Assembly: GCF_932294415.1 (NCBI RefSeq)
Contig: NC_065543.1
Coordinates: forward strand, 43,050,277 to 43,114,276
Source of the DNA: Quercus robur
Lineage: Eukaryota > Streptophyta > Magnoliopsida > Fagales > Fagaceae
Reading direction: 5' to 3'
Length of the DNA: 64,000 nt
Shown here: positions 7,341 to 47,785 of the stretch, in pieces
Numbering within the stretch: the first letter of the stretch is position 1
Layout of the letters: every line of letters starts with the position of its first letter
Notes under the pieces: generated by a model
What the model saw: the letters and a program-made list of their open reading frames with translations, nothing else
What the model was told of the DNA's origin: nothing
Database searches by the model: none
Program-made: the position numbers and the translations under genes

Positions 7341-8569
7341 CTAGTACTCACTCTCCGAGAATCCAAAAACATTGGGAAAAAAAAAAAATGGATAAGCTTA
7401 GAACTAGAACTAGTTATACTAGCAGCAAATGGATTGCCACGGTGGCAAGCTTATGGATTCAGTGTAGCTGTGGCGTAGACACTTTCAGCATCTACTCCTC
7501 GGTTCTGAAATCAAGCCAAGGCTACGACCAATCAACGCTGGACACCGTGGCTGTGTTCAAGGACACTGGTGGCAACGCCGGGGTTCTAGCTGGGCTGCTC
7601 TACTCCGCCGTGACACACAATAATAACTACTGCGGTGGTTTTGGTGGGCCATGGGTGGTGCACTTGGCTGGTGCGATTCAGAACTTCTTGGGGTTTTTTA
7701 TGATGTGGGCTGCGGTGGTGGGGCTGATCAAACGGCCGCCGGTGGCGGTGATGGGTTTGTTTATATTCTTGTCAACTCATGCTTCGGCTTTCTTTACCAC
7801 AGCTAATGTGGTCACCGGAGTCCAAAACTTCCCGCAATCCGGGGGACCATTGTGGGCGTCATGAAGGTAGGTACATCAAATATTTTAGCCTTTTAAGGCA
7901 GTTCACGTGTGAATGTACTATTACAAAGCCTTTCACTATCCAGCTTTTAAAAGGGTATGATTCAAGGGTATATGTTTGAGTGCTTTGGGATATCAAATGT
8001 GAATGAATAAAGAAATAAAAAGGAAATAATTAATGTTAATCAGAATATTGATGTAATATTGAGGTCGATTAAGGTGTATATAAAAAATAGATGAATAAAC
8101 TATAAAAAGTTTTATTTTATTATTTTGGGTTCATTTATTTAGTGAATAGTGCGTGGAGCCTGATACATGGTTTTAAAAATTGATACAGTGAAAGAACCTA
8201 AAAAGGGATTGATTATCGATTTTTTGGTCGGACTGGAGTTCGACCGATGGTCAAATTAGTGATGTCATAAATAATTTATTTAATAATTATAAAAATAAAT
8301 AAATAAATAATTTTAAAACTGGTCATTTTAACTAAAAAAATTAAATAATAGTAAAACATTAAACTTTAACTTACCACAATTCAACCAAAACAAAAACAAA
8401 AAAACATATACAAGCACCCACCACCTACAAGCCAACTATAAAACATTTTAATTATTTTTTAACTTTTCAAATAACAAAAAGTAAGTACACTAAAAAATGG
8501 GTAGCAATATCATTGCCCATTTGATATTTTTTTTTCTCTACACATTCTACTAAGTGTACTAATGGGTAG

Positions 8570-9350
8570 TGTAGGGTCACAGTTCGGGGTCCAGGCCCAA
8601 CAGTTATGGGGTTCTGGCCCAAGGAGCCCTAGACAATGAATTTGTAGAGAGTGAGTTACAGAACTAGGTCCTAACGAAGTGCGTGCTAGTTAACTTTGGG
8701 CCATACAACAATCGAAAATAAGAAAATCTCCTTCACGTCCATTAGATATACGGTCCGAGGAGACGTATGGGATGTATCTCTATCTCTAATCAAAGGCTAT
8801 GGTTCTTCTCTTCTTCTTCTGTTCTAAGTTCCTCCTTTTTCTCGTCCTCTTCTTCATGGAGACTCCCCTCTCTTATATAGCCCCTGGAAGTCATCAGAAC
8901 CTTACACTTGTTGATCATCTGGACCTTCACTTGAGTGCTCGTCTCATCGGACATTTTCCCTATCTTACTATGAGTTGTAGTAGCCAAGATAACACTGTTC
9001 GCAAGTCCTCTCCACATTAATGCGGCTAGAAAAGTAGCTGTCATGCATTTAATGTGGCAGCTGTAGTCTCTCCATCGACATCCTACACTTTCTTCCCTCT
9101 CACAGGCTTGTAGGACTCATCCCTGCTACTAATACTCGTTGGAGCGAGTCTTTATTGCTGGCAGAGTGCATGTTTGAGTCATATTTGGTACGTCCGAGGA
9201 GATATTCTTCCTCGGACTGCCCTTTCAACAATTTTGGGCCCATAAGAATTGGGCCGGGAGCCCTTTTGGTGCCCACACCTTCTCCTCAGACGTGGTCGAA
9301 TTCTATATGGGGCCCAAGGGATTGTGTGATCTAGGGACTTTACCCCTACA
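8570..9350 (+). mobile_element. Solo LTR, 781 bp, only in copy 1
   Basis: Starts TGTAGGGTCACAG and ends TTTACCCCTACA, with a perfect 5-bp target duplication GGTAG (8565-8569, 9351-9355). The homologous site at about 31346 in copy 2 is intact and empty, so insertion and LTR-LTR recombination either followed the duplication or copy 2 derives from an empty haplotype. CCTCGGAC and GTCCGAGGAG motifs inside recall gypsy LTRs, similar in flavour to the one at 50587 but a different family. Fossil, no genes. Confidence 0.9.
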
Positions 9351-9504
9351 GGTAGCAATATCATTGCCCACTTGATATTTTTTTCCCTTCACACATTCTA
9401 CACGTTAATATCCCAACTACCACACATTTTGAAATCCATACATTCACACAATTGGTTCAACAATAGTTCTGTACATATAATTTTCCCATCTCACTTTTTG
9501 CTTT

Positions 9505-9508
<4 letters not shown>

Positions 9509-9539
<31 letters not shown>
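9509..9539. repeat. (CT)n microsatellite
   Basis: About 15 CT units; the copy-2 partner is at 31502-31529 and slightly shorter. Confidence 0.9.
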
Positions 9540-9544
<5 letters not shown>

Positions 9545-10289
9545 TATGTTCATGTGCAAGAGGCAAGAGCAACAAAAAAAAGCCTTAACTAAGCATACAG
9601 ATCATTACAAATCTACTTATCTTTGAGCTTCTTTGGTTCTTCCTCAACGCAAATATAGTAAATCAATTTTTTTTTGAGCAAAAGGTAAGTAAAGTAAATC
9701 TGATGTTTTTGGGTCACTATGGGTGTCTTAGGCTTCACCATTTCATACTTGAGAGAGCATTTTCAAAATCAAAATCTCTGTTCTTAAATCTGAAACAAGA
9801 TCTCTCTTTTTATTTTTTTATTTTTATTTATTTTTTGGGGTTAAAAAACACAACTACTAAAGTATTTATGAAGAAATGCTAAAACCGGTTTAACTGCACC
9901 GGTTTCCTGTTATGCTGGTTGAATGGGCGGTTTGCACTATTTGTTTGCTTTTTCTTTCATTTCCAGTTTTAACTAATAACTGGACCGGATTAAGGTCTAG
10001 ATCCCGGTTGAACTAGCCGGTCCGGTTTTTAAAACTATGGCTTGATATGAATATTAAGACTAGGTCACATCTATGAATATCTAAAAATCGAAGCGTAACT
10101 TTTAATATTGTCACATTCCTATTGAGTTACATCATCGACCATGTTACCATTTTATTTTATTTGTTCCTCTAAAATAATATTAAATATATGAATGTGTAAA
10201 GTCAATTAGTTAATATATTTAATATTATATATCAACCAATTAGAAGATCAAATCAATAACAAAAATGGTGATGTGGCCGATAATTCGAT

Positions 10290-10462
10290 CCACTTCAGTC
10301 AAGTTTTGTCAATTTGGTCCAACTCGGTTCAATTTAGTCTATTTTGGTCCATTTTTGCTCAATTTGATCTAATTTGGTCCAGTTCGGTCATTTTGATCTC
10401 ATTTGGTCCAATGCGGTCCATTTGGTCTACTTCATTCTAATTTGGTCCACTTTAGTTCGTTT
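10290..10462. repeat. Degenerate minisatellite of TTGGTCC-type units
   Basis: About a dozen imperfect units of 10-14 bp built on AATTTGGTCCA / TTCGGTCCATT follow one another. The same array is in copy 2 at about 32270-32450, so it predates the duplication. Confidence 0.75.
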
Positions 10463-12625
10463 CAATGCATTTACTTAAGAGTGAGAAATGATAGGTATGG
10501 GTAGAGAGTACCTATTCTAAATCCAAATTTATTAAAAAAACATAGATGACAAAAAGTAATATTATTATTTTTAGTTGTTTAATTTAATGATTTATGGTAT
10601 TATCTTTCTTTATGTTCTTTTCCCCCCTAGGTGATGTTAGTATTTTAGTTTTTGAGTGAATTACACAATTTTAGTATTTTGACATGATATAATTTGAATT
10701 TGAAGACCAATTTCTAAGTTATATAGAAATTAGGAGATTAATGTAACTATGGTTTTCTTAAGCTTTTAAATAATTCACTTGAGCACATGAAATTTTTTTT
10801 CTATTAACATGTGAAGCTCATCTTGAAATGTATAAGTTATTTAACATACCACATCATAAATTCTATTATAAATAATTTTATTGTCCTCACAATTTTCTAA
10901 CAAGAACGATATATACTTTCATACAAGCACTCAAAATAGTTAATATGAAAAAATAAAGCCGCATGAAGCAAGCTCTTTAAGTTAATGACTCAATTATGTG
11001 GTTGCAAGATGTATCCAACTTTTTACTAAACAATAATAATAATAATAATAATAAATGTCAACACAAAAAATTGTAACAATTCCATGCATTGTATGAGCGT
11101 GTGACTAGATTATCAATAAAATACAAATAGCTTTCTCTTTTAAAAAAATTAAATTTAATGGAGAAATCTAATATACTACACTTAAAATAGTGTACCTAAG
11201 TTTTATCTTAATTGAAAAATCTAATATACAGCACCTAATTGTATCTAAGTTTTAGTGGTGTGATTTCATTAACTCATTATGAATTCTTCTATGACTATTT
11301 TTGTTACAACTTTGATGATGTAGAGTTGTAGTACAAAAGTTATGTTTAGAGATTTCTCATTCGTTGTACTATATGGGTTGTTATTGGATATCTCTAGCCA
11401 CCTTACGTGAGAGGAAGAGAATATACTCTCAGAATATACAATAATTTTTCATACTATCTCTCTTTGCCAGGGCTTTCTCGGTATAAGTGGAGCAATCATG
11501 GTCCAAGTGTACAACATATTCTGCGAGGGCAAGCCGAGCAATTTCATTTTAATGCTTGCTCTATTGCCTACGTTCGTCTCTATTATTCTTATGTTTTTTG
11601 TGAGAATATATGAAGCAAACATAGTTGATGACGTGAAGCAATTGAATGGTTTCCCTATTGTTGCTCTGATTATTGCTGGTTATCTCATGATTACACTAGT
11701 ATTGAAAAATATTTTTAGTTTGCCATTATGGGCACACATTATTATGTTTATATTTATGTTGCTTCTACTTGCATCACCACTTGGAATTGCAATCAAAGCC
11801 CAGATGGAGGACTCCAAGAGACTTTCGCAAATGTTTTCTAGTGAAAGTAATCATTCAAAGGAGAACCCAGCCAAGGACACTCTAGCATATCATGAATTAC
11901 CCGATGGAGAAGGTCAAGTTAATGCTGCTTTAGATGACAAGATTCTTCCTTATGAAGAGAGCATGAATCTTTTGCAAGCCTTGCGTACCATTAACTTCTT
12001 CTTGTTGTTTTTGGCCATGGTATGTGGAATGGGCTCGGGGCTAGCTGTGATAAATAACTTCAGCCAAATAGGGAGATCTCTCAATTACACTGCTGAGGAG
12101 GTTGATAATTTGGTCAGTTTATGGAGTATATGGAATTTTGTTGGGCGTATTGGAGTTGGGTATTTATCTGATTATTTACTACACACAAGAGGCTGGACAA
12201 GGCCATTGTTGATGTCTATTTCTCTAGCAGCAATGACTACTGGCCACATTGTTTTTGCTTCTGGTTTGCCTGGAATATTATACATAGGTTCGATCCTAGT
12301 GGGCATTTGTTATGGTTCACTGTGGTCACTAATGCCCACGATCACTTCAGAGATATTTGGTGTTAGGCATATGGGTACTATTTTCAATGCTATTGGTTTA
12401 GCATGTCCTATTGGATCCTACATTTTCTCTGTGAGAGTTGTTGGGTACATTTATGACATGCAAGCAACTGGTGAAGATCATTCCTGCTTTGGTACTCACT
12501 GCTTTACGCTGTCTTTTCTAATCATGGCATCCCTAGCTCTCTTGGGGTGCCTTGCTGCTATTGCATTGTTCTTTCGTACTAGGCGATTCTATCAATTGGT
12601 TGTGATTAGAAGATTGAAGTTATGA

Positions 12626-12987
12626 AAATTGTTGTTTAAACAATAGTAACAAACGGGCCCTAATAACTCGGGCAATCATCTTTTTCACTCATTAGATATT
12701 ATTATCTGGATAGTTATAACTTGTTATTTTTATGTGATTTTTCCTATAATTATATAAACTTGTATTGCTCAAATAACAAATCCAATTCATAGAACCCTAT
12801 ATTGAAATGAAAACTATTCAAACTTTTTCCAATCAAGCATATTGGTCACAATTAATCGTGACAATTGGAATAATTATTTTATACAGGATGTTGAATCAGT
12901 TGATTGTAAGAGGGATTTGGACAAAACATCTTGAAGAGATTTCAATTTAGAAGTTAATATGACATATAAGGTACACTAGGTAACCCA
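12626..12987. other. 3' flank of gene B
   Basis: It aligns with the 3' flank of C (25625-26009), for example 'agaagttaatatgacatataaggtac', as far as GTAACCCA. After that the two part: C continues in its own flank, B switches to an A-type gene tail. No gene inside. Confidence 0.65.
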
Positions 12988-13014
12988 AGAAGGTTAAGGC
13001 ATTCTTTAAAATGA
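12988..13014 (+). pseudogene. Orphan 3' tail of an A-type exon 2
   Basis: Twenty-seven bases reading R-R-L-R-H-S-L-K-stop match the last codons of gene A (1703-1729), and the flank after the stop matches the flank of A as well. There is no exon 2 before it: the join to the B-type 3' flank is abrupt at GTAACCC/AGAAGG. This is the scar of recombination between tandem genes. Confidence 0.75.
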
Positions 13015-13282
13015 TGAGCAGTAAATATGAGAAGTTTGTGTAAAGGTAATATTAGCTGAGGCTATAACCTTTGTGATTAGTTCTGGGTGTTATATGATTG
13101 TTTATTTGTAATTGGGTAAATGATACCTCTGTTTTTTTAAAGGAAAAGGATAATTTAGGAAAGAGTCTTACTGATATTTATTATTAATAGTTTCAATTAA
13201 TCATCATCATTTTTGGAATCGTGCTCAGTGTGAAAGTGGTCAAATTCCTATACCTACTAAATGATGGTTTATTTTTTTGAAA

Positions 13283-14302
13283 GGTGAAAAACACATTTTA
13301 GTCCCTACATTTTCAGGCGATTCCCATTTCAGTCCCTAAATTTTATTTTTACCGTTTTTAGTCCCTATCCTGAAAAACGCTTTTTATTTTGGTCCCTGCC
13401 GTCACATCAGAAACGGAAATTGCATAGTTGGCAAACGGCATGCACTGTTGGCCTGACGTGGCCATTAAAATAATAATAAAAAATACCACGTCAACATTTA
13501 AATTAAAAAAATTAATTTATTAATTTTAACTAAATAAAAAAAATTAAAAACAGAATTAAAAACTAAAAATCATATGAATTGAGATCTAAGTGTGTCTTGA
13601 ACAAGAACAACAAGAACACAAACCCAGAAATTAAAAAAACAAACAAAAGGAAGAAGAAGGTATTTTTCACTATTTATCCACCTGACACTTCTTCTATTAA
13701 CTAAAACTAGAACCGGATAATAAAAAAACTCTCCTTCCCCAAAAACTCATCTCTCAAAAACGTTAGTCCCCAAAAACCATCTTCCCCTAACACTATTGAA
13801 AAAACAATCATTAGCGTAAAAGAAAAACCCAAACTGAAAAACCCTTTTGAACCCATAGCTAACGCATCAATTTTTGGGTTTGGATTGTCGAATCCGTAGA
13901 TCTCAGTCTCTCTATCCTTCCTCATTCTTAGATCGGAGCTTAGATTTTTTTTTTTTTTTTGGTGGAGAACCAAACGGTCCTCACTCTCAAATCGGCATGG
14001 AGCTTAGATCAGTGTGTATTGTGAGATATCTCCATATAGTGAAACGGAAAACAAATCAGTAAGTTGTGGTTTGGGTAAGTGATTGTTTTGATTTGGTATT
14101 TGTTGGGTGGTGGATTTCTGGGTTGATCTGAGCGTGATCGGAGCTGGGTGTGTGCTGTGATGTGTGCGTGGGTTTGGATCAGTGGGTTTCTCAGTGGGTT
14201 TCTAGGTTGATCTGGGCGTGACCGAAACTGGGTATGTGCTATGATGTGTGCGTGGGTTTGGATCGGCGGAGATCGGAGTGGGTTTGAACTAATGCTTTGA
14301 TG

Positions 14303-14346
<44 letters not shown>

Positions 14347-14700
14347 CTGGGTTTGTGTTCTTGGATTTGAGCTTGTGTTCTTGTTCAAGACATACTTAGA
14401 TCTTAATTCATATAATTTTTAGTTTTAAATTTTGTTTTTTAATTTTTTTTATTTAGTTAAAATTAATAAATTAATTTTTTTAATTTAAATGCTGAGACAT
14501 TTATTATTATTATTTTAATGGCCACGTCAGGCCAACAGTGCATGCCGTTTGCCAGCTGTGTAATTTCCGTTACGTCAGTAACGGCAGGGACCAAAATAAA
14601 AAGCGTTTTTCAGGATAGGGACTAAAAAAGGTAAAAATAAAATTTATGGACTAAAATAGAAATCGCTTGAAAATGTAGGCACTAAAATGTACTTTTCGCC
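13283..14700. mobile_element. Non-autonomous MULE, 1418 bp, long TIRs
   Basis: Ends GGTGAAAAACACATTTTAGT (left) and, reversed, GGCGAAAAGTACATTTTAGT (right). The inverted repeats run for about 360 bp each (to about 13645 and from about 14338). A 9-bp target duplication TTTTTGAAA flanks it (13274-13282, 14701-14709), the size typical of Mutator-like elements. Copy 2 has the empty site near 35252-35265. The 690-bp core has no transposase. It holds a T38 run (14303-14340) and a G-rich part with repeated 'gatcggagct' and 'gtgtgcgtgggtttggatc' phrases, which might be a captured piece of host DNA. Confidence 0.9.
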
Positions 14701-15743
14701 TTTTTGAAATGACTAAATGATGGTTTATGACAGAGCTATTCTTTTCTTTTATTATAATTTTTTTTGACATAAAGTAAGCTCTCAACATAAAAAATACCAA
14801 CAATCTCCGAAATTCTATAGAAAATCGTGTCAGACAAGAAGTTAGTCTAAAATTGCAACACATGCATACGGTCCGGATTCATGGAAGTTCAATCTTTGGC
14901 TGTATCAACCATTAAATTTCTCATGTTATAGAACTATTAACTCTTTGATTATCAGCCTATTTTAATATTTCAGACCAAAAGGGGAAAAGAAAAACACTTG
15001 AAACTCTCAGCATCTACTATCTAGGATACCTAGAAAATTTAATTAAAAAGAGGAACAGCTTACAAGGAAATCTTATAAATACTCTGATTTAAAAAGGAGT
15101 GCATTAATTTGTAGGTAACTATTGCTGTTTGAAATGCTTAATAAAGTAACAAAAAATTTCTCTCTCTAAAGATAGGGCTACCCAATAGGAAACCCTCCCT
15201 GTATCCAGAAATCCTTCAACCCAAGTTTGAAAAAAAAAAAAAAAAGGTTTTGATCTCTGATCTTTGATACTATCTTAATATTTTAATAACTAAATATACC
15301 TTTCATTTCTTAGAAAACACACGAGTATCACTTTCTATGAGGTTCAGAATTTATGTTCCTTTATAACATAGCAGGGCATATCATAGTTTAGGGCAACAGA
15401 ATCTGTTCCAACAAAACTGGAGGAGTTTCCTGCTTTATGGTAAGGTTGAATTACATTTCTTGAGGCTTTGGAAATTGAAGTCTTCTCTCCATCAAGCCAT
15501 CTGCCATCAAGGATTCAAGGTAGTGTCATTGATACTTTACATTGTCACTATGTCTAACATATAGTATAAAGGATTTAAGGTTGAAACATTTGACGATTCA
15601 AATTAAATATTAAAAATTTCAAAGAGCATTCAGCGTCATATTATTTAAGAAATAACTTTTAACTATGAAATGAATTATCTTCATTTCAAACAAAATAAAT
15701 GCCAAATTCAGCTCCCAGTGAGAGAAAGGGGGAAGCATATGCC

Positions 15744-15987
15744 AACTCTGGTCATAAAGAAGCAAATTTCGTTGGTGGACTTTTATTTAAAATTTGATCC
15801 ATAATTTTTCAAAAATATCAAGGTCTCAAGGGTTGGAATTCATCAAGCACTTTTTATTTATTTACAACTCTGGTCATAAAGAAGAAAACTTGGTTGGTGG
15901 ACTTTTAATTAAGATTTGATCCATAATTTTTCAAAAATATCAAAGTCTCAAGGGTTGGAATTCATCAAGCATTTTTTATTTGTTTAT
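15744..15987. repeat. 122-bp tandem duplication
   Basis: Two units begin AACTCTGGTCATAAAGAAG at 15744 and 15866 and share 'tttgatccataatttttc' and 'gggttggaattcatcaagca'. Copy 2 has the same pair (36291, 36413), while the first unit near 3460-3580 has one diverged copy only. Confidence 0.85.
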
Positions 15988-17315
15988 TTATAATGATTCA
16001 TAATGTCCGTATTGATGTATTAGATAAGAGTTCTATATGATATTCAGATATTATATGTTAACATTTTTTTTTAATAAAGAAAGAATCAGTGGCAAGTTGG
16101 CAAGACTCTTTGAGGACACCAATATGATTATAAGTTGATAACTTTGGTCCAAGAAAAATGCCACCAATAATAAAGATTGTCACTATCATGATCATCAACT
16201 ACCTACTTAAATTTATGATTTTAAAAATCTTTGAGGACTTTTTATTATTTATTTTTTTCTTAAGAATAGTATAAGTTTGGACTATTATTAAAAAAATTAT
16301 AACTTTGCCACAAATTCAATTAATGGCGCGCCCATAAATACGTACATTATATGCAAAGTGACAAATGGGATATGACCCCCTTCCATTGAATTTTTCAATT
16401 TGCTTGAATATTTATTTAGATGTATGATTGTATTTAAAGGAAAAAAAATGCACGTGTCTCATACCGGATAAAAATGGGAGGAAATTCACTTATTATTGGC
16501 GTGCACTGTCAACATTTTGTTCTCCCCCTCTCTAATCCCTCTCCTCTCCTCTTAATCATTTAAATTTAGTTTATTATATATATTTTCTTTGATAATCATC
16601 ATGTTTATGTAATTTGATAATTTCACAGTTGAAGTTTATGTTACTGTGCAGTAGATGTTTACTCTATTGTGTTAATCCTTTTTTTTAATCACTGTGTTAA
16701 TCCTTTTACTTGACATTACTGGACACTTTTCAGTTTTCACTAGACTAAGAGAAATATTCTAATCTTGTTACTATTGCTGGCTGAAAATGGCTGAAAATGC
16801 TTGCTTAGCAATGATGGACATTTTCTTACTTTTACTGGACATATTCATTTAAGTTTATTGAACCATTTGGATATTGCCAACTTAGCCATGCAGGACACAT
16901 TTATTTGGATTTCATTGAATACATTTGATCACCATTGCTAGATGCCATTGTCCTAGCTTTATTAGAAACTTTACTTTCACTTCACTAAAATATTATCCTA
17001 GTTTTGCTGGATGAAAAATTAAGATTTTATTAAGCATGTTATTTTAATTTTGTCAAGCACACTTCTTTTGATCTGAATGTTTCTAAATGCATTAATATTA
17101 TTTTGCTAGCACTTCTTGAGGCAAACTCATGTCATTTTTCACTTATTTTGACATGATTTACATGCAGATCTAAATCGACACTAATATAAGTCACCACAAA
17201 GCAAACTCCAATGCTTTTAAAATATTTTGCAACTAATCTTAATGTTCTCAATGTTGTTACTGAATGCTTTGGGTCATAATTATGAGAAAGTATACCTTAT
17301 ATCAAGTATATGTAA

Positions 17316-17379
17316 CATCTCTCTCACAGCAAGTAAGTCTTGCATATCAGTGGGTTCACCTGCTGTGAGAGCAGAGATG
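17316..17379. other. Hairpin: 16-bp arms, about 29-nt loop
   Basis: Left arm CATCTCTCTCACAGCA (17316-17331), right arm TGCTGTGAGAG...GAGATG (17361-17379) with a 3-base bulge. In copy 2 the two arms pair perfectly. The role is unknown; see findings. Confidence 0.6.
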
Positions 17380-17573: not shown

Positions 17574-17596
17574 GAGAGAGAGAGAGAGAGAGAGAG
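17574..17596. repeat. (GA)n microsatellite
   Basis: Eleven GA units; the copy-2 partner is at about 38108-38131. Confidence 0.9.
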
Positions 17597-18671: not shown

Positions 18672-18674
18672 TAA

Positions 18675-34996: not shown

Positions 34997-37900
34997 TGAG
35001 CAGTAAATATGAGAAGTTTGTGTAAAGGTAATATTAGCTGAGGCTATAACCTTTGTGATTAGTTCTGGGTGTTATATGATTGTTTATTTGTAATTGGGTG
35101 AATGATATCTCTGTTTTTTTAAAGGAAAAGGATAATTTAGGAAAGAGCCTTACTGATATTTATTATTAATAGTTTCAATTAATCATCATCATTTTTGGAA
35201 TCGTGCTCAGTGTGAAAGTGGTCAAATTCCTATACCTACTAAATGATGGTTTATTTTTTGAGATGACTAAATGATGGTTTATGACAAAGCTATTCTTTTC
35301 TTTTATTATAATTTTTTTTGACATAAAGTAAGCTCTCAACATAAAAAAATACCAACAATCTCCGAAATTCTATAGAAAATCGTGTCAGACAAGAAGTTAG
35401 TCTAAAATTGCAACATATGCATACGGATTCATGGAAGTTCAATCTTTGGCTGTATCAACCATTAATTCCCATGTTATAGAACTATTAACTCTTTGATTAT
35501 CAGCCTATTTTAATATTTCAGACCAAAAGGGGAAAAGAAAAAGACTTGAAACTCTCAGCATCTACTATCTAGGATACCTAGAAAATTTAATTAAAAAGAG
35601 GAACAGCTTACAAGGAAATCTCATAAATACTCTGATTTAAAAAGGAGTGCATTTGTAGGTAACTATTGCTGTTTGAAATGCTTAATAAAGTAACAAAAAA
35701 TTTCTCTCTCTAAAGATAGGGCTACCCAGTAGGAAACCCTCCCTGTATCCAGAAATCCTTCAACCCAAGTTTGAAAAAAAAAAAAAAAAAATGGTTTTGA
35801 TCTCTGATCTTTGATACTATCTTAATATTTTAATAACTAAATATACCTTTCATTTCTTAGAAAACACACGAATATCACTTTCTATGAGGTTCAGAATTTA
35901 TGTTCCTTTATAACATAGCAGGGCATATCATAGTTTAGGGCAACAGAAACTGTTCCAACAAAACTGGAGGAGTTTCCTGCTTTATGGTAAGGTTGAATTA
36001 CATTTCTTGAGGCTTTGGAAATTGAAGTCTTCTCTCCATCAAGCCATCTGCCATCAAGGATTCAATGTAGTGTCATTGATACTTTACATTGTCACTATGT
36101 CTAACATATAGTATAAAGGATTTAAGGTTGAAACATTTGACGATTCAAATTAAATAGTAAAAATTTCAAAGAGCTTTCAGCGTCATATTATTTAAGAAAT
36201 AACTTTTAACTATGAAATGAATTATCTTCATTTCAAACAAAATAAATGCCAAATTCAGCTCCCAGTGAGAGAAAGGGGGAAGCATATGCCAACTCTGGTC
36301 ATAAAGAAGCAAATTTCGTTGGTGGACTTTTATTTAAAATTTGATCCATAATTTTTCAAAAATATCAAGGTCTCAAAGGTTGGAATTCATCAAGCACTTT
36401 TTATTTATTTACAACTCTGGTCATAAAGAAGAAAACTTGGTTGGTGGACTTTTAATTAATAAGATTTGATCCATAATTTTTCAAAAATATCAAAGTCTCA
36501 AGGGTTGGAATTCATCAAGCATTTTTTATTTGTTTATTTATAATGATTCATGTCCGTATTGATGTATTAGATAAGAGTTCTATATGATATTCAGATATTA
36601 TATGTTAACTTTTTTTTTAATAAAGAAAGAATCAGTGGCAAGTTGGCAAGACTCTTTGAGGACACCAATATGATTATAAGTTGATAACTTTGGTCCAAGA
36701 AAAATGCCACCAATAATAAAGATTGTCACTATCATGATCATCAACTACCTACTTAAATTTATGATTTTAAAAATCTTTGAGGACTTTTTATTATTTATTT
36801 TTTTCTTAAGAATAGTATAAGTTTGGACTATTATTAAAAAAATTATAACTTTGCCACAAATTCAATTAATGGCGCTCATAAATACGTACATTATATGCAA
36901 AGTGACAAATGGGATATGACCCCCTTCCATTGAATTTTTCAATTTGCTTGAATATTTATTTAGATGTATGATTGTATTTAAAGGAAAAAAAATGCACGTG
37001 TCTCATACCGGATAAAAATGGGAGGGAATTCACTTATTATTGGCGTGCACTGTCAACATTTTGTTCTCCCCCTCTCTAATCCCTCTCCTCTCCTCTTAAT
37101 CATTTAAATTTAGTTTATTATATATATTTTCTTTGATAATCATCATGTTTATGTAATTTGATAATTTCACAGTTGAAGTTTATGTTACTGTGCAGTAGAT
37201 GTTTACTCTATTGTGTTAATCCTTTTTTTTAATCACTGTGTTAATCCTTTTACTTGACATTACTGGACACTTTTCACTAGACTATGAGAAATATTCTAAT
37301 CTTGTTACTATTGCTGGCTGAAAATGGCTGAAAATGCTTGCTTAGCAATGATGGACATTTTCTTACTTTTACTGGACATATTCATTTAAGTTTATTGAAC
37401 CATTTGGATATTGCCAACTTAGCCATGCAGGACACATTTATTTGGATTTCATTGAATACATTTGATCACCATTGCTAGATGCCATTGTTCTAGCTTTATT
37501 AGAAACTTTACTTTCACTTCACTAAAATATTATCCTAGCTTTGCTGGATGAAAAATTAAGATTTTATTAAGCATGTTATTTTAATTTTGTCAAGCACACT
37601 GCTTTTGATCTGAATGTTTCTAAATGCATTAATATCATTTTGCTAGCACTTCTTGAGGCAAACTCATGTCATTTTTCACTTATTTTGACATGATTTACAT
37701 GCAGATCTAAATCAACACTAATATAAGTCACAACAAAGCAAACTCCAATGCTTTTAAAATATTTTGCAACTAATCTTAATGTTCTCAATGTTGTTACTGA
37801 ATGCTTTGGGTCATAATTATGAGAAAGTATACTTTATATCGAGTATATGTAACATCTCTCTCACAGCAAGTAAGTCTCGCATATCAGTGGGTTCACCTGC

Positions 37901-38107
37901 TGTGAGAGAGATGATATATATATAGGATATGAGGTATAATTTTTTCATAATTACACCATCATTTAATTTCACTTATTAATTACATCGCTTTATTGTTTAA
38001 AAAGAAGCACCGTACTTGCTAGCCAATTGGTCATCCATTGGCATGAGTTTCATACTTGACTATTCCTTAAACTTGATTCTAACTGTCGACCTATCAAAGA
38101 ATAACAG
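34997..38107. other. Intergenic DNA, copy 2
   Basis: Partner of 13015-17573. It contains the empty MULE site (about 35252-35265), the 122-bp tandem pair at 36291-36537 and the hairpin. No gene seen. Confidence 0.6.
37853..37913. other. Perfect 16-bp hairpin, copy 2
   Basis: CATCTCTCTCACAGCA (37853-37868) pairs perfectly with TGCTGTGAGAGAGATG (37898-37913) across a 29-nt loop. The copy-1 partner has a 3-base bulge. Confidence 0.65.
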
Positions 38108-38130
38108 GAGAGAGAGAGAGAGAGAGAGAG

Positions 38131-38341
38131 AAGTCCACTTGGTGGGGGCGATCCAAACCTTATTGAGGTGATATGGGCTTGTGCGGTGGGATTATTCCAA
38201 CGGCCTTTGGTGCCGTTGATGTGTTTCTTCCTGTTCTTGTTAACTCATTCAGTGACTTTCTTTACTTAACTATGGCCAATGTAATTATTGTTGCGCACGA
38301 CTTCCCTCAATTTGGTGGGACCATCATGAGCATAACGAAGC
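38131..38341 (+). pseudogene. Relic of an NFD4-like exon 1, copy 2
   Basis: Partner of 17597-17808 with a handful of substitutions (95 open codons from 38173). It lacks the first half of the exon and a donor site. Confidence 0.8.
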
Positions 38342-39804
38342 CACATCATTTTTCAAATAATTATAATTATAATAATAATAAAGGGGGTACATCAACATTT
38401 TTTTATACAAGGAACTTGCTTTCTAAGTTTGATAAGATTATTTCACTTTTTATTAACTAGATATCTTGAAACATCTCATGAACCGATGATGTGATGAATG
38501 GAGCATGAGACCTTTGGATTGATGGCATGTCCTTCAAGTCCATTGAGTCCACCATTCAATTGTTCCTATATGTACATTAGTTCTTGACCTTCTTGAATCG
38601 ATAATCAATTTTTTAATACATAAAATCATTAGCACCTCTAAAATTATTAAAATGTTATCATTTTCATATAAATTTCATTCGTTTTTTTTTTGTGTATTCT
38701 TTCTGTATGCTTCCATTAAAGTAGTTGCCATGTAGTGACCTAAAGTAACATTGTATTTAGGACACATAACAACACAATATGACAGAATTAGACCAAAAAA
38801 CCGTATTGAGTAGAAGTAAAAGTTATGAGATTAAAATGAATAAATCAGATGTTACAAGATTGAATTGACTTTGAGAAAAGTTAGATAGTGTAATTTGTAA
38901 GTATATGTTCAAAGCTTGTTAATAGAGAAATTAACAACCCTTGACAAGTCTCTTTAAGGAAGCAATCATGATAACTTGGTCCAAGTAAAACGCTAGCAAT
39001 AATTGAGATTATCACTATAATGAATCTGGGGGAGGAAGAGATACGCTTGGACCCCTAACTTGAGAATGCAGGGGGAGCCCATTAACTCCAAACATGGTCA
39101 AGCCCAAAGGAAACCCTATAGATACTCAAGCATCATTCTAATAAAGGTATACAAAATCATAAGCCTTTACTCTTATATTACGCAAAAAATCTAGCCATTG
39201 TCGTATGACTAAACCTTCATAGTACATCCGATCAACCCTACAAGTTGCGCTTTGTGTGGTAATCATTAAATAAGTTAGGTCCTATTGAACCAGTCAAGCA
39301 TCCTCGGACATTCTTCCCATTTGAGTACTCAACTCAACTGTGACTTCCTCTCTAAAAATTCATTTTCCCACAAATAAACTAGTTATAACAATTTCTTTTA
39401 GTTTCTAATATTAAATTTCTTTTGTTTAATTTTGTTGCGTGAGATTTTAGCTAGCTACAGAAAGCTTTGGCCCATCCCATTGCTAGCATTGGGTCTTTTT
39501 CTTATCTGACTTTTAGCCATAGGCCACCTACTTCACTTTCTATCCCAAACTGGTATGTGATGTGAGTGAGCGAGTCATTCAGATAGAATGACTCAGAGAT
39601 GAAAAAAAAAAGAATAGTAAATTATTAAATTGTTTACGATATTCAAAATATCTTCCATCGAGGACTCCAGGGCCCAGGTTCCTGTTGTTTTTCGAAGAAT
39701 CTAATCATGGACTTTCATTAAAGCCCAAAATGGTGAAACACGATCAGGGTTGTTGTATTAAACGAGTGAAACACTCAAACACAAGCTCATGCGCGCGTGC
39801 AATA
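38342..39804. other. Spacer and upstream region of C', with deletion junction
   Basis: Up to about 39105 it matches 17809-18574; from about 39106 it matches 21675 onward. The join CAAGCCCAAAGGAAACCC fuses 'caagcccaaa' of the left with 'caaaggaaaccc' of the right, so four bases (CAAA) are shared: a microhomology-type deletion of about 3.1 kb. No gene. Confidence 0.8.
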
Positions 39805-39820
39805 GTATAATATAATAAGA
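39805..39820 (+). promoter_or_regulatory. Likely TATA box of C'
   Basis: GTATAATATAATAAGA followed by ACTCTCC, identical to the block before gene C. Confidence 0.4.
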
Positions 39821-40330
39821 GCTACTCTCCAAGAACGAGAATTCAAAAACATAGGAAAGACTCTTTTCTTTTTTTTTTTTTTTAGACAAGAAAAAACATG
39901 TGGAGGCTTAGAATTAGCAGCAGCAAATGGATAGCCACGGTGGCAAGCATATGGATTCTGTGTAGCTGTGGCGCAGACACTTTCAGCATCTACTCCTCAG
40001 TTCTGAAATCAAGCCAAGGTTACGACCAATCAACGCTTGACACCGTGGCATTCTTCAAGGACTTTGGCAGCAACTCAGGGATCTTAGCTGGGCTTCTCTA
40101 CTCAGCCGTAACAGTTAATAATAACCCTTCCATCTGGAGTCGTGGTGGGCCATGGGTGGTACATGTGGCCGGTGCGATCCAGAATTTCCTTGGGTATTTT
40201 ATGATGTGGGCTTCTGTGGTGGGATTGATCCAACGGCCACCGGTGGCGTGGTGGGCCATGGGTGGTACATGTGGCCTAACCATGCTGCGGTTTTCTTTGC
40301 CACAGCCAATTTGGTTACCGGAGTCCGAAA

Positions 40331-40476
40331 CTTCCCTCAATCCAGTGGGACCATTGTGGGCATCTTAAAGGTAGGTGCTTCAATATTCTTTGGCTACTCC
40401 GTTCTTCCCTCAATCCAGTGGGACCATTGTGGGCATCTTAAAGGTAGGTGCTTCAATATTCTTTGGCCTCTCCCTT
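40331..40476 (+). repeat. 73-bp tandem duplication over the exon-1 donor of C'
   Basis: Two copies of 'cttccctcaatccagtggga' through 'ggtaggtgcttcaatattc', starting at 40331 and 40404. Both carry an intact AAAG/GTAGGT donor. Gene C has a single copy. Confidence 0.9.
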
Positions 40477-40602
40477 CTATTATTAATACTTGCCTTTCAC
40501 TATCTAGCTTTTAAAAGAAGAATGTTAGTTTCACAAGTTTCCTAATAGCTGGTTACGTGGGAAATTATGAGCCACAGAGATGTGGACTTTATGAACCCTC
40601 TA

Positions 40603-41170
40603 AATTTTTTTTTTTGGGGGGGAAAAATTGAAATTTTATTAATGAACGCCTATCAAATCGGCTTGTGCAACTGAAAGTAACTGTGGTGAAACATCTTCCA
40701 TTCACACTACAAAATCTAGAATGCTTTTTGCATGTTTAGCCAGACCATGCGCTACTTGATTACCTTCTCTCCTAGTGTGAGAGTAAGATAATTCCTCAAA
40801 ACTATTAGCTAAAGACTTGACATCATCTAACAACAGACCAAAAGGAGATAAACTGCTAGCGTCCTCCCTTAACGCTTTTATCACTGCTAATGAGTCACCC
40901 TCCAGGATAGCTCGTTTAATGCTGATATCTGAAGCGAAAGAAAGAGTAGCAGCTGCTGTCATGGTTTCTATCTCACACCCACTGTATGCCACTAGAATTT
41001 TCTTTGCACAGGACGCTAGAACCAAGCCTCCCTCGTTCCTTATAACCACGCCAATCCCAGACTTATTTTCATTCACAAACACCGCACCATCGAAGTTAAT
41101 TTTTACTAACTCGATCCACAGAGGGCGGTCTCCAACGTTTTTCTTCATCTCTAAATTTAGAGGTCACTAA
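40603..41170 (-). mobile_element. L1 LINE 3' end with RNase H domain, in intron of C'
   Basis: Partner of 23098-23700. The frame 41148-40702 (minus) reads INFDGAVF, ETMTAAATL, LEGDSLAVI and SYSHTRREGNQVAHGLAKH, keeping all RNase H acidic residues. Its first Asp context (NFDGAVF) is closer to the canonical form than that of copy 1. The A tract is the T-run at 40603-40613 on the plus strand. Confidence 0.8.
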
Positions 41171-41280
41171 ATTTTTTCTACTATTCATAATTCGTCACAT
41201 GACAAGATATGGTAAAAATTGTGAAACTTTTTGTGGCACTAAAATTTCTCTTTTAAAAAGTTATTATCTCCTTACACAAC

Positions 41281-41301
41281 AAAAAAAAAAAAAAAAAAAA
41301 A

Positions 41302-41330
<29 letters not shown>
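41281..41330. repeat. A-run followed by (AAT)n
   Basis: About 22 A then nine AAT units. The copy-1 site (23794-23812) has only four or five units. Confidence 0.85.
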
Positions 41331-41333
<3 letters not shown>

Positions 41334-41567
41334 AAAGCTATTTAGAAGGGTAAATTGTATTTGTGTCTCTTAGTTAGAAATAGTGCTTACTAGTCTTCAA
41401 AACTTTTAAAACATAACAGCATTAGCATATAAATTAACATTTCAATTTTTTTAAAATTAAAATGATAGTTCATCAAGCTCAACAAACTAGCACGTGAAAA
41501 TTTAACAAATAAATAGTAACTCAATACCTCTATTAAGTTATTGCTCGATCATAAAAAATACTAAATA

Positions 41568-41572
<5 letters not shown>

Positions 41573-41618
<46 letters not shown>
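41573..41618. repeat. (AT)n microsatellite in intron of C'
   Basis: About 22 AT units against about 14 at 24058-24087. Confidence 0.9.
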
Positions 41619-41620
<2 letters not shown>

Positions 41621-43156
41621 ATTTGGTTGTGGATTTTGGGATTACAAATTTGAATGAACAAACATGCATGTAGAAAGGAAATGGTATTTAATTGTAATAG
41701 TGATGTAGTACTGAGATGGATATAGATGTATGTGTAGAGCCTAATGTAAATGCCAATACTGGTTGCATTTATTCATAAATACCAAGAGTTTTATCTTAAT
41801 TGAAAAATATAATATAGTGCACCCAAGTAAGTAATTTTCATTAATTTAAATATGAATTGCTTTAGAAGCACAATTTTTATTACAATTTTAGTACGGTAAA
41901 TTGTGAGTAATTGTTTATTATTTTTACATATACTTACTATTTTTTTTTCTATACACTCACGGCCAATTACATCAAAATTTTGGATGAAAGGGCTTTCTCG
42001 GTATAAGTGGAGCAATTATGGTCCAAGCGTACAGCATATTCTGCAAGGGAAAGCCGAGCACTCTCATTCTCATGCTTGCTCTATTGCCTACATTCGTCTC
42101 TATTGTGCTTATGTCTTTTGTGAGAATCTATGAAGCAAATACAGTTGATGATGTGAGGCGATTGAATGGTTTCCCTATAGTTGCTCTGATCATTGCTGGT
42201 TATCTCATGATCATACTAATTTTGGAAAATATTTTTAGTTTGCCATTATGGGCGCACATTATTACGTTTATCTTTATGTTGCTTCTACTTGCATCACCAC
42301 TTGGAATTGCAATCAAAGCCCAGAGGGAGGACTCCATGAGATTTTCACCAATGTTTTCTAGTGAAAGTAATCATTCAAAGGAGAACCAAGCTAAGGATAG
42401 TCTAGAATATCACGAACTGCCTGATGGAGAAGGTCAAGTTCATGATGCTTTAGATGACAAAATTCTGCCTTATGAAGATCAGGGCATGAATCTTTTGCAA
42501 GCCTTGCGTACCATAAACTTCTGGTTGTTGTTTATAGCCATGGTATGTGGAATGGGCTCTGGGGTAGCTGTAGTAAAAACCTCAGCCAAATAGGGAAATC
42601 TCTCAATTACACTGCTGTGGAGGTGAATAATTTGGTCACTTTATGGAGTATATGTAATTTTGTTGGGCGTATTGGAGTTGGGTATTTATCAGATTATTTG
42701 CTACACACAAGAGGTTGGACAAGGCCATTGTTGATGGCTATTTCTCTAGCAGCAATGACTACTAGCCACATTGTTTTTGCTTCCAATTTTCCTGGAATTT
42801 TATACATAGTTTCGATCCTAGTGAGTCTTTGTTATGGTTCACTGTGGTCACTAATGCCCACGATTACTTCGGAGATATTTGGTGTTAGGCACTTGGGTAC
42901 TATTTTCAATGCTATTGGTTTAGCCTGTCCAGTTGGATCTTATATTTTCTCGTTGAGAGTTATTGGGTACATTTATGACACGCAAGCTGCTGGTGAAGAT
43001 CATTCCTGCTTTGGTACTCACTGCTTTCTGCTATCTTTTCTAATCATGGCCTTTCTGGCTCTCTTGGGGTGTCTTGCTGCTATTGCATTGTTCTTTCGTA
43101 CCAGGCAGTTCTATCAGTTGGTTGTGATTAGAAGATTAAAGCATTATTTAAGATAA

Positions 43157-43995
43157 TGAGAAGAAATATATCAAATTTGTGTACAGAGAAAAGCTAATAA
43201 CTTAGGCATTCATCGTTTTTGCTCCTTAGCATGTTATCTGGATACTTATATGGTTGAAGGGGTATGTGTGTTTTGTTTTGGTTTGGTTTGGTTTGATTTT
43301 TTTTTTCCCTAAGGTCTCAGTTGATTTCAGCAATCTTATTATTTTTATGTGATTTTTCCTATTATAATATTAATTTTTTATCTCATAAATAATAAATCTA
43401 ACTCATAACACCCTATATTGGAATGCAAACTATTCAAACTATGTGTGACCCATTTGGACAAAATATTTTTTTGAAACTATTTGGACAAAATATTGTGGGA
43501 AGACTTCAACTAAGAAGTTAATATGATACATATAAGGTACATCATGTAACCCAAAACTTTAAGCATGTGGATTTGGGCAATTATGTTATATTAATAATTC
43601 TTCAATTTCTTTACTTTTTTTGTGTGAAATTTTTATTTACATGTGTATACCCAACAATCCTTCTTTTATGCATGAGTCATTGTGTCTTTGTGGACATAAA
43701 ATAGGCATGTGCATCTAACCTATCAACCTGAAGGCCAACAAAGCAACCCAACCCAATGTCTCTAGTTGGTTTTCGTAGGTTGAAATTTTGTTGAGAGTCT
43801 TGAGTTGAATTGGGTTTGGGTTGATAGTTTTTAACTCATGTGTACCCAATAATACCTCATTTATGTGTAAGACATTGCCTCTTTGTAGGCCACAAACAGG
43901 TGTGCGTGCATCCAACCTATTGTCTTGACAAAGCAACTTAATTAACCCAATATTACAAGTTGGTTTTTGTGGGTTGGTGAGTTGCATTAGAATTT
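43157..43995. other. 3' flank of C'
   Basis: Partner of 25625-26455, including the diverged 190-bp direct repeat. The flank then jumps to exon-relic sequence: about 570 bp present in copy 1 (26456-27017) are missing here. No gene. Confidence 0.6.
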
Positions 43996-44186
43996 TATTT
44001 GGGTATTTTATGATGTGGACTTGTGTGGGGGGATTGATCCAACGACAACCGATGGCGTTGATGTGTTGGTTTGTATTCTTTTCTAACCATGCTACTGTTT
44101 TCTTTGCCACAGCCAATTTGGTTACTGTCCAAAACTTTCCTCAAATCAAGTAGGACCATTATGGGCATCTTTAAGGTAGGTGCTTC
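43996..44186 (+). pseudogene. Relic of a further NFD4-like exon 1 (E'), 3' half
   Basis: 'tttgggtattttatgatgtgg', then LIQRQPMALMCWFVFFSNHATVFFAT-like codons and a decayed GTIMGIFK end with a still good AAG/GTAGGT donor at 44175-44180. The following intron start matches that of C ('gcttcgatattctttggg'). The front half of the exon is missing. Copy 1 (26942) keeps the front and has lost this back half. Confidence 0.78.
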
Positions 44187-44508
44187 GATATTCTTTGGGT
44201 ACTGTCTTCTATTATTACTTGCCTTTCACTATCTAGCTTTTCAAAAGGTAATTATCTTCAAAAAATATAAAAAAGGAAAAGCATTTTAGAGGAGTAAATT
44301 GTATTTTTATCTCTTAGAAATAGTCGTTACTAGTCTTTCAAAACTTTTTAAAACATAACAGCATTAGTATCTGAAGTTGAATTCCCTTTGATAATAGAAT
44401 ATAATCATCAGTAAGTTGAATTCTATCCTATCTTAAAAGAAAAAAAACACAATTAATAATAGCCTTAGAGTTAAAGGCAAGAAAAAACCATAGAAAAAAG
44501 TTGCAGGG
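44187..44508 (+). other. Intron relic and upstream region of D'
   Basis: Starts as the intron of relic E', then matches 27088-27263 before gene D. No clear TATA box in either; 'agccttagagttaaaggcaag' is shared near the start codon. Confidence 0.5.
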
Positions 44509-46678
44509 ATGATGGAGAGGGTACTGAGTAACAAATGGATGGCGACGGTGGCAAGCATGTGGATTCAGTGTAGCTGCGGTGTTTACACCTTCAGCGTCTA
44601 CTCCTCTGTTCTGAAATCAAGCCAAGGCTACGACCAATCAACGCTCGAAACTATGGCCGTTTTCAGAGACATTGGATCAATCGGTGGTGTCCTAGCTGGG
44701 CTCCTCTACTCCGCCGTAACAAACGGTAGTAATCACTCTGGTTTCGGTGGGCCATGGGCGGTTCTCCTGGCCGGAGCAAGCCAGAATTTCTTGGGCTATT
44801 TTCTAACATGGGCTTCTGTCGTGGGATTAATCAAACGGCCTCCGGTGCCTTTGATGTGTCTCTTCATGTACTTGTCGAGTCAATCTATGCCGTTCTTTAA
44901 CACAGCCAATACAGTTTCAGGTGTGCAAAACTTCCCTGATTATAGTGGGACCATTGTGGGCATAATGAAGGTACATTTCATATATGATATTTTTATAAAA
45001 TGCATATATAAATTGAGTAAACCAATAAATTTGAGTCGCAATTAATATGATTTGCATCACATCAATAACATTATAGACAGAAAGAAAGTCGTTTATATTG
45101 AACTATCGATGTAAACTTTTATTGTAGAGACATGTATAATATTATAGATATTTTTTTTTGCGCAAATACGAACAATATTACTCGTATTTTACGTTTTTAC
45201 GATATAAGTTTACATTGCTAATACACTATAACTAAGAAATTTCCAATTTATTTATTTATTTATTTCTTAGGTCATATATATATATATATATATATTTATT
45301 TATTTATGACCTCCCGTTTGATTGAAGCATAAAGGTAAAAAATAAAAATGATTCTTGTCAATAATATATACTATTATACTCTTTAGCAACCTAATAATAT
45401 GATTGCTTAAACTAGGCATAAATATGACTTCTTTTAAGAACAAAAATAAGTTTGGCCTCTTGCTTGAGCTATGTATATATGCTATGCCTGTGATATTACT
45501 TTCTTTCCCAGGGATTTTCTGGGATTAGTGGAGCAATACTAATCCGTGCATATAACACATTCTACGAGGGCGAGCCGAGTAAATTCCTTCTAATGCTTGC
45601 TCTGTTGCCTACACTCATCTCCCTTGTGCTTATGCTCTTGGTAAAAATTTATAAAACAAACACAGGTGATGACAAGAAGCACTTGAATGGTTTCTTTGCT
45701 GTTGCTCTGATCATTGCTGGTTATCTCATGATTATAATAATTTTGGAAAATATCTTCACTTTTCCATTATGGGCACACAGAGTCACCTTTATACTTCTCT
45801 TGCTTCTACTCGCATCGCCAATTGGAATTTCAATCAGAGCCCAGAATGAGGACTCCAAGAGAGTTCTAGAAACGCTTTCCTTTGACAGTAATCCATTAAG
45901 AGGACACCCTGAGTTACTGCGATCCTCCTCTGACTCCTCTGTACCCGAGGATATGGCATACCATGAACTGCCTAGTGTTGCTCTAGATGACAAAATTCTG
46001 TTTGATGAAGTAGGCATGAATCTTTTGCAAGCCATGTGCTCTGTAAACTTTTGGTTGTTGTTTATTGCGATGATATGTGGAATGGGCTCTACAGTGGCTG
46101 TGATAAACAACTTGAGCCAAATGGGACAATCTCTCAATTACACTAGTGTGGAGGTGAATAATTTGGTCTCTTTATGGAGTATATGGGATTGTCTTGGCCG
46201 TGTTGGAGCTGGTTATTTGTCAGATTATTTACTACACACAAGAGGCTGGGCAAGACCATTGTTGATGGCTATTACTCTAGCAACAATGATTATTGGCCTC
46301 ATCGTTATTGCTTCTGGATTTCCTAGAATATTATATGTGGGTTCTATCCTAATAGGCATTTGTGATGGTTCTCTGTGGTCATTAATTCCCACAATTACTT
46401 CGGATATATTTGGTGTTAGGCATATGGGTACTATTTTCGGCGCTATTACCCTAGCATCTTCTGTTGGATCTTATATTTTCTCTGTCAAACTTATGGGCTA
46501 TATTTACGATAAGGAAGCAGGTGGTGATGATCACTCATGCTTTGGCACTCGTTGCTTTATGTTATCTCTTTTAATCATGGCATCCTTGGCTCTTCTGGGG
46601 TTTCTTTTGGCCATTGCATTATTCATTCGTACTAAGAGGTTCTATTCGCTGAGGAGATTAAAGGACTCTGTTAAATGA
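44509..46678 (+). CDS. NFD4-like nodulin/MFS transporter, gene D', complete (542 aa)
   Basis: Exon 1 is 44509-44970 (154 codons from MMERVLSNKWMATV), intron 44971-45511 (541 bp), exon 2 45512-46678 (388 codons and TGA). The nodulin-like domain spans about residues 8-250 and an MFS C-terminal half about 320-530. Membrane segments include SNKWMATVASMWIQCSCG at 7-24, residues 78-103, 182-200, 215-235, 246-262 and 504-526. A polar loop lies at 263-323, with GRVGAGYLSDYLLHTRG at 383-399 and FGVRHMGT at 454-461. Length, splice sites (AAGGTACAT; TTTCCCAG) and all family motifs are normal; it keeps GMGS, SLWSL, VGSYIF and SLALLGF that D has lost. It differs from D by one added codon (Leu6). By sequence this is the soundest gene in the window. 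NFD4 in Arabidopsis acts in karyogamy; a role of this copy in that is not implied. Confidence 0.92.
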
Positions 46679-47003
46679 TGGAGTAAATAACTATATATGC
46701 AAACTTTGTGTATAAGGTCATGGCTGAGGCCATCCTTGTTTTTTCTTGCATTACAGGTGGGTAGCTTGTTTTCGGACCATTTATTGTTGCTTTCATCAGT
46801 TTCATGTGCATTACTCTTCCTATAAGACGAGTCCTCGGAGGATCCCTGGCATAAGGGAGGGTGGTGTGAAAGAAATATGAAATGTCTCTTACCTTACCCT
46901 AATCAATTCATAATTTGGTTCCTCAAAAAAAAAAAAAAATCAATTCATAATTTACTCTGAATGTTATATTGTTAAAGTCTTTTATTTTTATTATTTTAAA
47001 ATG

Positions 47004-47009
47004 AATAAA
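47004..47009 (+). promoter_or_regulatory. Possible poly(A) signal of gene D'
   Basis: AATAAA 326 bp after the stop, in the same context as at 29724. Confidence 0.3.
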
Positions 47010-47111
47010 TAGTGTCTCTATTCACAATACTGTAGAAAGTTAAAAATTAAAAAAGAAGAAAAAACAAAAATTATTGCAATTAATTGTAAAAATTCTGTAA
47101 ATGTTAATGTA

Positions 47112-47785
47112 TACAAGTAATTCCCAAGCAGGCCTTCATTGGTTGGCTGGTCATGTTGAATAGATTGTCAACCAAGGAAAGAAGGCTTAATTAATTGGGT
47201 CTTTAATGCAGATACATAATGCACCTCTTCTTTGATTTCTCTTTTTCTAGGAGATTATGTAGGACTCTCATCAGTTGGTGCATGGTGAAGCACCCTAACT
47301 TTTGTTAGGATGAGATAATGGCTTGGGGTGAAAGACATGCCAAAGGTAAGAGCCTTAGATCCAATGTATTCCACTTAGCCTTGTGGTCTGTTGTATATCA
47401 CATTTGGCAGTAGGGAATGTAATGTTTCACCAAGGGAGAATTTATGTTGAAGAAAATATCCTTCACTTGATCAAGTGGGAAGTTAGAAGGAAAGTTGAAG
47501 GGAATGACTATTTTACTAATTCTATCTAAAACAGAATCTTGTGATGTATATGGGGAATTTCTTTAGATGTTCTTTAATCAGTTGAATTTTGTGATGTGCA
47601 TGGGGAATTTTGTGATGTTCTTTAATTCCTTTCCCTTGTTGTGGCCAAGTGATTGTCTCCCTTGTATATGAGTTAATTTTAGAGTTTATTGGTGTTCTAG
47701 TTTTGCTATTAAGTGTTGTTACTTGAACTTTGTACTCTATTCATTTGATGCAATGCAATCTTCTCGTTCATCAAAAAAGAATAAA
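47112..47785 (+). mobile_element. L1 LINE 3' fragment behind D'
   Basis: The translation shows KQAFIGWLAMLNRLSTKE-like residues, then with breaks WGERHAKGKSLRS and NVFHLALWSVVYHIWQ, a succession typical of the C-terminal, zinc-binding part of plant L1 ORF2. The 3' end is non-coding with two similar 'ttgtgatgtrtatggggaat' phrases and ends near the A-rich tract at 47775-47824. It is decayed, with several stops. The first 250 bp are shared with 29830-30071. Confidence 0.72.

Follow-up and report, generated by a model that had tools for sequence, protein, structure and literature searches.

A direct tandem duplication in an NFD4-like gene array of Quercus robur, with the remainder of a hAT-type transposon at its middle junction

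A stretch of 64,000 nucleotides of the Quercus robur genome (the window; C39:43050277-43114276) carries two runs of the same genes and relics, which raises the question of whether they arose as one simple and recent 22-kb tandem duplication with foreign DNA in its middle junction, as a sequence-only reading had proposed. The self dot-plot suggested as a check was carried out as a self-comparison of the window, which listed alignments of at least 100 bases in one run and of at least 60 bases and 80% identity in a second. Collinear direct blocks were found, the order B exon 2, C, relic X, D recurred in both copies, and the four edges given earlier (7906, 30071, 30598 and 47365) were correct within 2 bases. 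The two copies and their collinear blocks (copy 1/copy 2) are as follows.

7904..30070, + strand: copy 1 of the tandem unit, 22,167 bp, with part of intron 1 and exon 2 of B, C, relic X, D and part of a dispersed LINE-like repeat
30598..47364, + strand: copy 2 of the tandem unit, 16,767 bp, with B′ exon 2, C′, relic X′, D′ and part of the LINE-like repeat
7904-7973/30598-30667, direct: collinear block
7974-8569/30749-31349, direct: collinear block
9351-13277/31345-35259, direct: collinear block
14701-18568/35255-39108, direct: collinear block
21675-26460/39105-44007, direct: collinear block
27078-30070/44325-47364, direct: collinear block

The copies differ at 400 of 16,118 ungapped aligned sites, a similarity far above chance. 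They are adjacent, collinear and direct, and the middle junction joins the right end of the unit to its left end with the remainder of a transposon in between; as had been claimed, no counterpart of B exon 1 lies there, and the repeat ends at 30070 without its far end. A direct tandem duplication is confirmed at the level of the assembled sequence, and apart from its left edge, filler, size and date it had been well described. The size of 22 kb holds for copy 1, but not for copy 2. Near the joint, about 80 bp (30668-30748) occur only in copy 2, and no relative of them was found in the 260 kb examined.

The genes concerned have two exons and are NFD4-like (Nodulin-like/MFS): PF06813 (Nodulin-like) covers exon 1 and the beginning of exon 2, and the remainder of exon 2 matches PF23262 (NFD4_C) and MFS_1. 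Both PF06813 and PF23262 scored above cut-off in D and in D′, as in other members of this family, from which only the decay of B, C and C′ sets the cluster apart.

7388..7866, + strand: B exon 1, frameshifted by the loss of 1 bp close to its 3′ end; no counterpart before B′
11471..12625, + strand: B exon 2, open
33454..34593, + strand: B′ exon 2, open to a slightly early stop; exon 1 absent
24458..25624, + strand: C exon 2; exon 1 (~22488-22937) with a nonsense codon
41991..43153, + strand: C′ exon 2, with a frameshift; exon 1 (~39919-40443) with a copied tract of ~30 bases and a 73-bp tandem repeat
27264..29437, + strand: gene D, exons 27264-27722 and 28265-29437, both open
44509..46678, + strand: gene D′, exons 44509-44970 and 45512-46678, both open

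Because D and D′ are open, B, C and C′ are damaged and B′ lacks exon 1, the duplication would have added at most one working gene, judged by open frames. Ka/Ks between the second exons of D and D′ was 0.57. The copied tract in C′ exon 1 (40247-40276, ~30 bases) repeats exactly what lies 106 bases upstream (40141-40170) and replaces the C sequence; the 73-bp tandem repeat (40331-40478) spans the end of that exon. Rfam at the gathering score and tRNA scans returned nothing, and the literature retrieved for NFD4 and tandem does not, in the portions available, appear to treat a duplicated cluster.

The surrounding array was surveyed with B exon 2 as the query against the 785.7-Mb genome. Among 24 matches, 18 sizeable ones, B included and two of them partial, lie at 43.01-43.34 Mb of C39 and are 73-100% identical to the query (B itself included); the others are a 45-base remnant in the same array and five short matches elsewhere. 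A third D copy with its own relic X, D″, lies at C39:43219316-43221475 (window coordinate 169040-171199), ~124 kb downstream of D′, among the alignments listed in the array comparison (at least 400 bases long in one part).

The difference in length between the copies is associated with the following insertions and losses.

8570..9350, + strand: copy-1-only insertion of 781 bp, solo-LTR-like, TG...CA, with GGTAG at 8565-8569 and 9351-9355
13283..14700, unstranded: copy-1-only insertion of 1,418 bp, MULE-like, with inverted repeats of ~370 bp and TTTTTGAAA at 13274-13282 and 14701-14709
18569..21674, unstranded: copy-1-only block of 3,106 bp, two abutting dispersed repeats plus ~400 bp outside them, with only CAAA at its edges
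26750..27080, + strand: relic X, a C-like 5′ flank with an exon-1 remnant; its deletion differs from that in X′, with CGTT at the cut
43989..44327, + strand: relic X′, the 3′ part of exon 1 and the start of the intron, with TTT at the cut

For the 3.1-kb block, 40 of 4,112 candidate relatives were scored; among these, dispersed relatives span its bases ~100-1165 and ~1155-2823 separately, and ~400 bp at its two ends are unmatched. Insertion of the whole block as one transposon is therefore unlikely, and because of the unmatched ends, with only CAAA at the edges, a loss from copy 2 is likelier than a gain in copy 1, so that this difference is probably a deletion in copy 2. Relic X, which lies between C and D, was shortened by different deletions in the two copies. 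Given the copy-1-only insertions, the loss from copy 2 and the deletions in relic X, we estimate that the unit was nearer 17 to 20 kb than 22 kb at its birth. The homology of relic X to the 5′ flanks of C and C′ begins beside the right edge of the 3.1-kb block (21678, 26750 and 39108).

The junction between the copies had been described as holding 526 bp of foreign DNA. Genome searches indicated that it is instead the 3′ part of a dispersed transposon.

30071..30597, + strand: 3′ remainder of a hAT-type transposon, 527 bp, with an intact terminus ...CAGTCCTA at 30597 and truncated at 30071
30598..30605, + strand: CATGTGTG, presumed to be the right-hand copy of an 8-bp target-site duplication that has lost its left one
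7904..7911, + strand: empty transposon site in copy 1, CACGTGTG, identical to CATGTGTG at 7 of 8 positions

With 40 of 81 candidates scored, the 527 bp had at least 46 matches in the genome, and at least 13 of the scored matches span bases 1-527 (both counts including the window's own); within the 260 kb examined, other copies amounted only to matches of at most 39 bases. Eight relatives were taken with their flanks, three of them near-identical with the same flanks, leaving six distinct insertions. All eight share the same final base (...TCCTA) and are followed by differing flanks, and all eight continue past the truncation of the window's element, sharing at least ~22 bases there and ~100 or more in six. 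Random foreign DNA is rejected as the origin of the filler by these genome matches and by the relatives with their fixed terminus.

The opposite end of the element reads TAGGACTGATATTGGG in most matched ends. Ten complete relatives, 0.9 to 4.8 kb long, were chosen from a larger number of possible end pairs, three of them matching only the last ~220 bases of the filler. Every one of the ten is flanked by 8-bp repeats (eight perfect, two with 7/8); they represent eight distinct insertions, since three share flanks, and six of the eight have perfect octamers. Both ends of the complete relatives carry the short terminal inverted repeat TAGGACTGA, with one or two changes in some. A pattern search for the left end, allowing up to 3 mismatches, gave 36 matches and its reversed control 12, which means that the 36 include chance hits; the search for the right end gave 7 versus 0. 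An 8-bp target-site duplication with short inverted ends is the hAT pattern, from which the superfamily name is drawn; the relatives display both features, and the window's own element keeps one side only.

In copy 2 the transposon terminus at 30597 is followed directly by CATGTGTG, and the homology between the copies begins exactly at CACGTGTG of copy 1 (7904), where copy 1 carries a single octamer at the homologous base and no doubled remnant. Because the homology in copy 2 begins at the terminus with its matching octamer, the left homology edge coincides with an insertion site: on this sequence evidence 7904 is the transposon insertion point, and as a duplication breakpoint it is not supported. 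The earlier placement of this edge in intron 1 of B was accurate within 2 bases, but its role as the edge of the duplication was not borne out, since it consists of a transposon terminus and a target octamer. We infer the insertion in B′ from one side, with the left flanking repeat missing and one octamer base differing.

The novel joint lies on the other side of the transposon remainder.

30067..30071, + strand: novel joint of the LINE-like repeat (...GATCCAA) to the transposon interior (AGAGAGG...), with CCAA common to four of eight transposon relatives

The joint reads GATCCAA/AGAGAGG (30070/30071), and its counterpart in copy 2 reads GATCCAA/TGTATTC. Before AGA, CCAA stands in four of the eight transposon relatives (two of six distinct insertions, three of the four being near-identical with the same flanks) and CAG or AAG in the other four, so the overlap at the joint is four bases or fewer. 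A query of 47100-47800 returned 29 match rows, including the window's two copies and D″, which identifies a dispersed repeat. The D″ row covers query bases 1-701 unbroken across the position of 47364, and at least three dispersed rows (27-679, 26-686 and 21-480) cross query base 265, which corresponds to 47364 and at which copy 1 ends. Because these rows run across 47364 and copy 1 stops there, the right flank of copy 2 represents the old state and 30070/30071 the new joint.

The right edge had been placed inside an L1 fragment. The repeat does end at 30070 in copy 1 and run past 47364 in copy 2, but the L1 or LINE label was not confirmed by Pfam: neither reverse transcriptase nor zf-RVT was matched in four open frames of two relatives or in one frame of the window, and tblastn of the repeat against pieces of the LINE at 59749-63606 gave nothing significant (best E 1.5). 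To the eye the repeat looks LINE-like. The LINE at 59749-63606 is itself degenerate, with reverse transcriptase and zf-RVT matches.

Divergence between the copies was counted as substitutions only, with gapped sites left out throughout. The second exons of B and B′, said earlier to differ by about 2%, differ at 10 of 1,137 bases (0.9%). The part from B to C differs at 264 of 13,182 sites (2.00%) versus 136 of 2,936 (4.63%) in the D part (Fisher p = 2.5e-14), or 108 of 2,797 (3.9%; p = 3.5e-8) when the hypervariable intron tract 27850-27995 is left out of the D part. Counts per 250 sites are overdispersed, with an index of dispersion of 4.1 over 63 intervals (27850-27995 left out) and of 3.3 over 52 intervals in the B-to-C part alone, and difference-free runs of 586 and 495 compared sites lie beside intervals with 18, 19 and 27 differences. 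Ks in exon 2 was 0.016 for B-B′, 0.015 for C-C′ (200 codons, as far as the C′ frameshift) and 0.047 for D-D′.

The three D copies are nearly equally distant from one another (D-D′ 4.63%, D-D″ 3.93%, D′-D″ 4.17%). In the exon-2 tree, B-B′ and C-C′ are firm pairs and D, D′ and D″ form a trichotomy; over 2,911 compared columns, 64 changes are unique to D, 71 to D′ and 43 to D″, and six columns differ in all three. In the stretch 29478-30070, D′ holds 35 of 55 single-copy changes. The conclusion drawn earlier, that the duplication is recent, fails with such mosaic divergence (0.9%, 2.0%, 4.6%) and strong overdispersion, which do not serve as a clock; percent identity between tandem copies is not age. 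A single clock-like event misfits these data, so no date is given; different alleles, or conversion among the D copies, would fit. The trichotomy of D, D′ and D″ is explained by no single event. The intron tract at 27850-27995, ~145 bases, is ~18-26% different among the three D copies, with 98-99% identity in its left flank and ~95% in its right.

The reading that we favour, with a probability of roughly 0.55, is a real direct tandem duplication in an NFD4-like array, in which the LINE-like repeat was end-joined to the interior of the transposon and the copies came from two alleles or were mixed later. The order of events, the allelic origin and the end joining we infer as follows. On the chromosome from which copy 2 came, a hAT-type transposon would have entered intron 1 of B. 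The LINE-like repeat that follows D, on a chromosome without the transposon, would then have been joined to the transposon interior; no long homology would have been involved, though up to 4 bases may have overlapped. This would have yielded a copy 1 without the transposon and a copy 2 with its remainder. Since the other end of the unit lies inside the transposon, the remainder would be part of the unit and not filler. The bare site in B of copy 1 and the patchy divergence suggest that the copies are probably derived from two alleles, by unequal exchange between homologues, or were mixed later by recombination or conversion. The outcome would be one extra open gene (D or D′), a B′ exon 2 without exon 1, and broken C copies.

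This end-joined duplication is supported by the collinear blocks, the transposon family with fixed termini, the single octamer in copy 1, the rows across 47364 and the uneven divergence of B, C and D. Against it stand the 4-base overlap, present in only two of the six distinct insertions, the differing octamer base, the missing left flanking repeat, and the finding that D has diverged from D′ as much as from D″, which is not what one simple event predicts.

An identical sequence would result if the duplication had originally been longer and included B exon 1, the transposon had then entered intron 1 of B′, and a deletion starting in the LINE-like repeat and ending in the transposon had afterwards taken away the first junction together with B′ exon 1 and the 5′ part of the transposon. 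The unit does contain other short-overlap losses (CGTT in X, TTT in X′ and CAAA for the 3.1 kb). This course needs one event more than the favoured reading, however, and neither a second B exon 1 nor anything derived from the far side of 47364 is seen between the copies; we regard it as unlikely.

An assembly artefact, in which two haplotypes of one locus were placed in tandem, comes into consideration because the copies differ as two alleles might: the patchy divergence and the insertions present in one copy only are what alleles would show, and haplotype duplication errors are described (PMC9516828). The window contains no N, however, the joined sequences share at most ~4 bases, which offers little for an overlap-based false join, and the joint is a clean breakpoint between repeat and transposon, so an artefact seems quite improbable.

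The transposon might also have produced the duplication directly, by alternative transposition of the reversed-ends type, a process considered here because hAT elements of maize (Ac/Ds, dhAT) make tandem direct duplications in this way, including a case with fractured elements (PMC3744419). A broken hAT in the LINE-like repeat of one homologue would have inserted its intact end at 7904 of the other. The middle junction resembles those duplications in its fractured element and in its intact hAT-type terminus and octamer, copy 2 starting exactly at that terminus, followed by the octamer that matches the empty site; an ordinary insertion, however, explains the terminus and octamer at 30597/30598 equally well. 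Unlike the cases described in PMC3744419, in which the element initiates each repeat, copy 1 here begins with an empty site (7904-7911), the truncated side meets the repeat without a terminus, the right-edge repeat of copy 2 runs on without an element, and the 260 kb examined yielded no other element containing this 3′ part. Alternative transposition is thus very unlikely to have made this duplication, and its published form is rejected, as a defining feature, an element at the start of each repeat and the first with matching flanking repeats, is absent. We likewise consider it very unlikely that the transposon's own transposase acted on a broken hAT and placed its intact end in B intron 1 of the homologue, enlarging the cluster and fusing two alleles in tandem. 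Unequal crossing-over between homologous array genes (NAHR), for which the sizeable exon-2 matches could have offered substrates, is highly improbable and is rejected at the visible joint, where unrelated sequences with at most ~4 shared bases in place of long homology are linked and no hybrid gene lies at 30071; it could survive only within the longer original duplication described above.

The favoured end-joined duplication resembles end-joined or short-overlap tandem segmental duplications of plant gene clusters in its direct copies, its non-homologous ends and its short or absent overlap, and differs from them in that one end lies inside a transposon carried by one copy only and the copies are unevenly diverged. 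Apart from the transposon origin of the "foreign DNA" and this uneven divergence, it is an ordinary duplication of a known kind. The locus illustrates clearly how what looks like the edge of a duplication, with "foreign filler", turns out to be the place where a transposon inserted. If the two copies represent fused alleles, divergence-based dating of tandem duplicates would tend to overestimate their age in outcrossing plants.

A larger, older duplication of ~123 kb was observed in the same array, between 25546-26530/43078-50585 and beyond in the window and C39:43216462 to ~43255200. Substitutions amount to 1.7-10% in the segments compared, and the left joint of this duplication is at C39:43216462, close to where a C-like exon 2 ends. 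At 55287-56011 of the window an 81-bp unit is repeated in tandem about eight times, next to a stretch (52030-54993) that matches reverse transcriptase and integrase weakly, below the cut-off.
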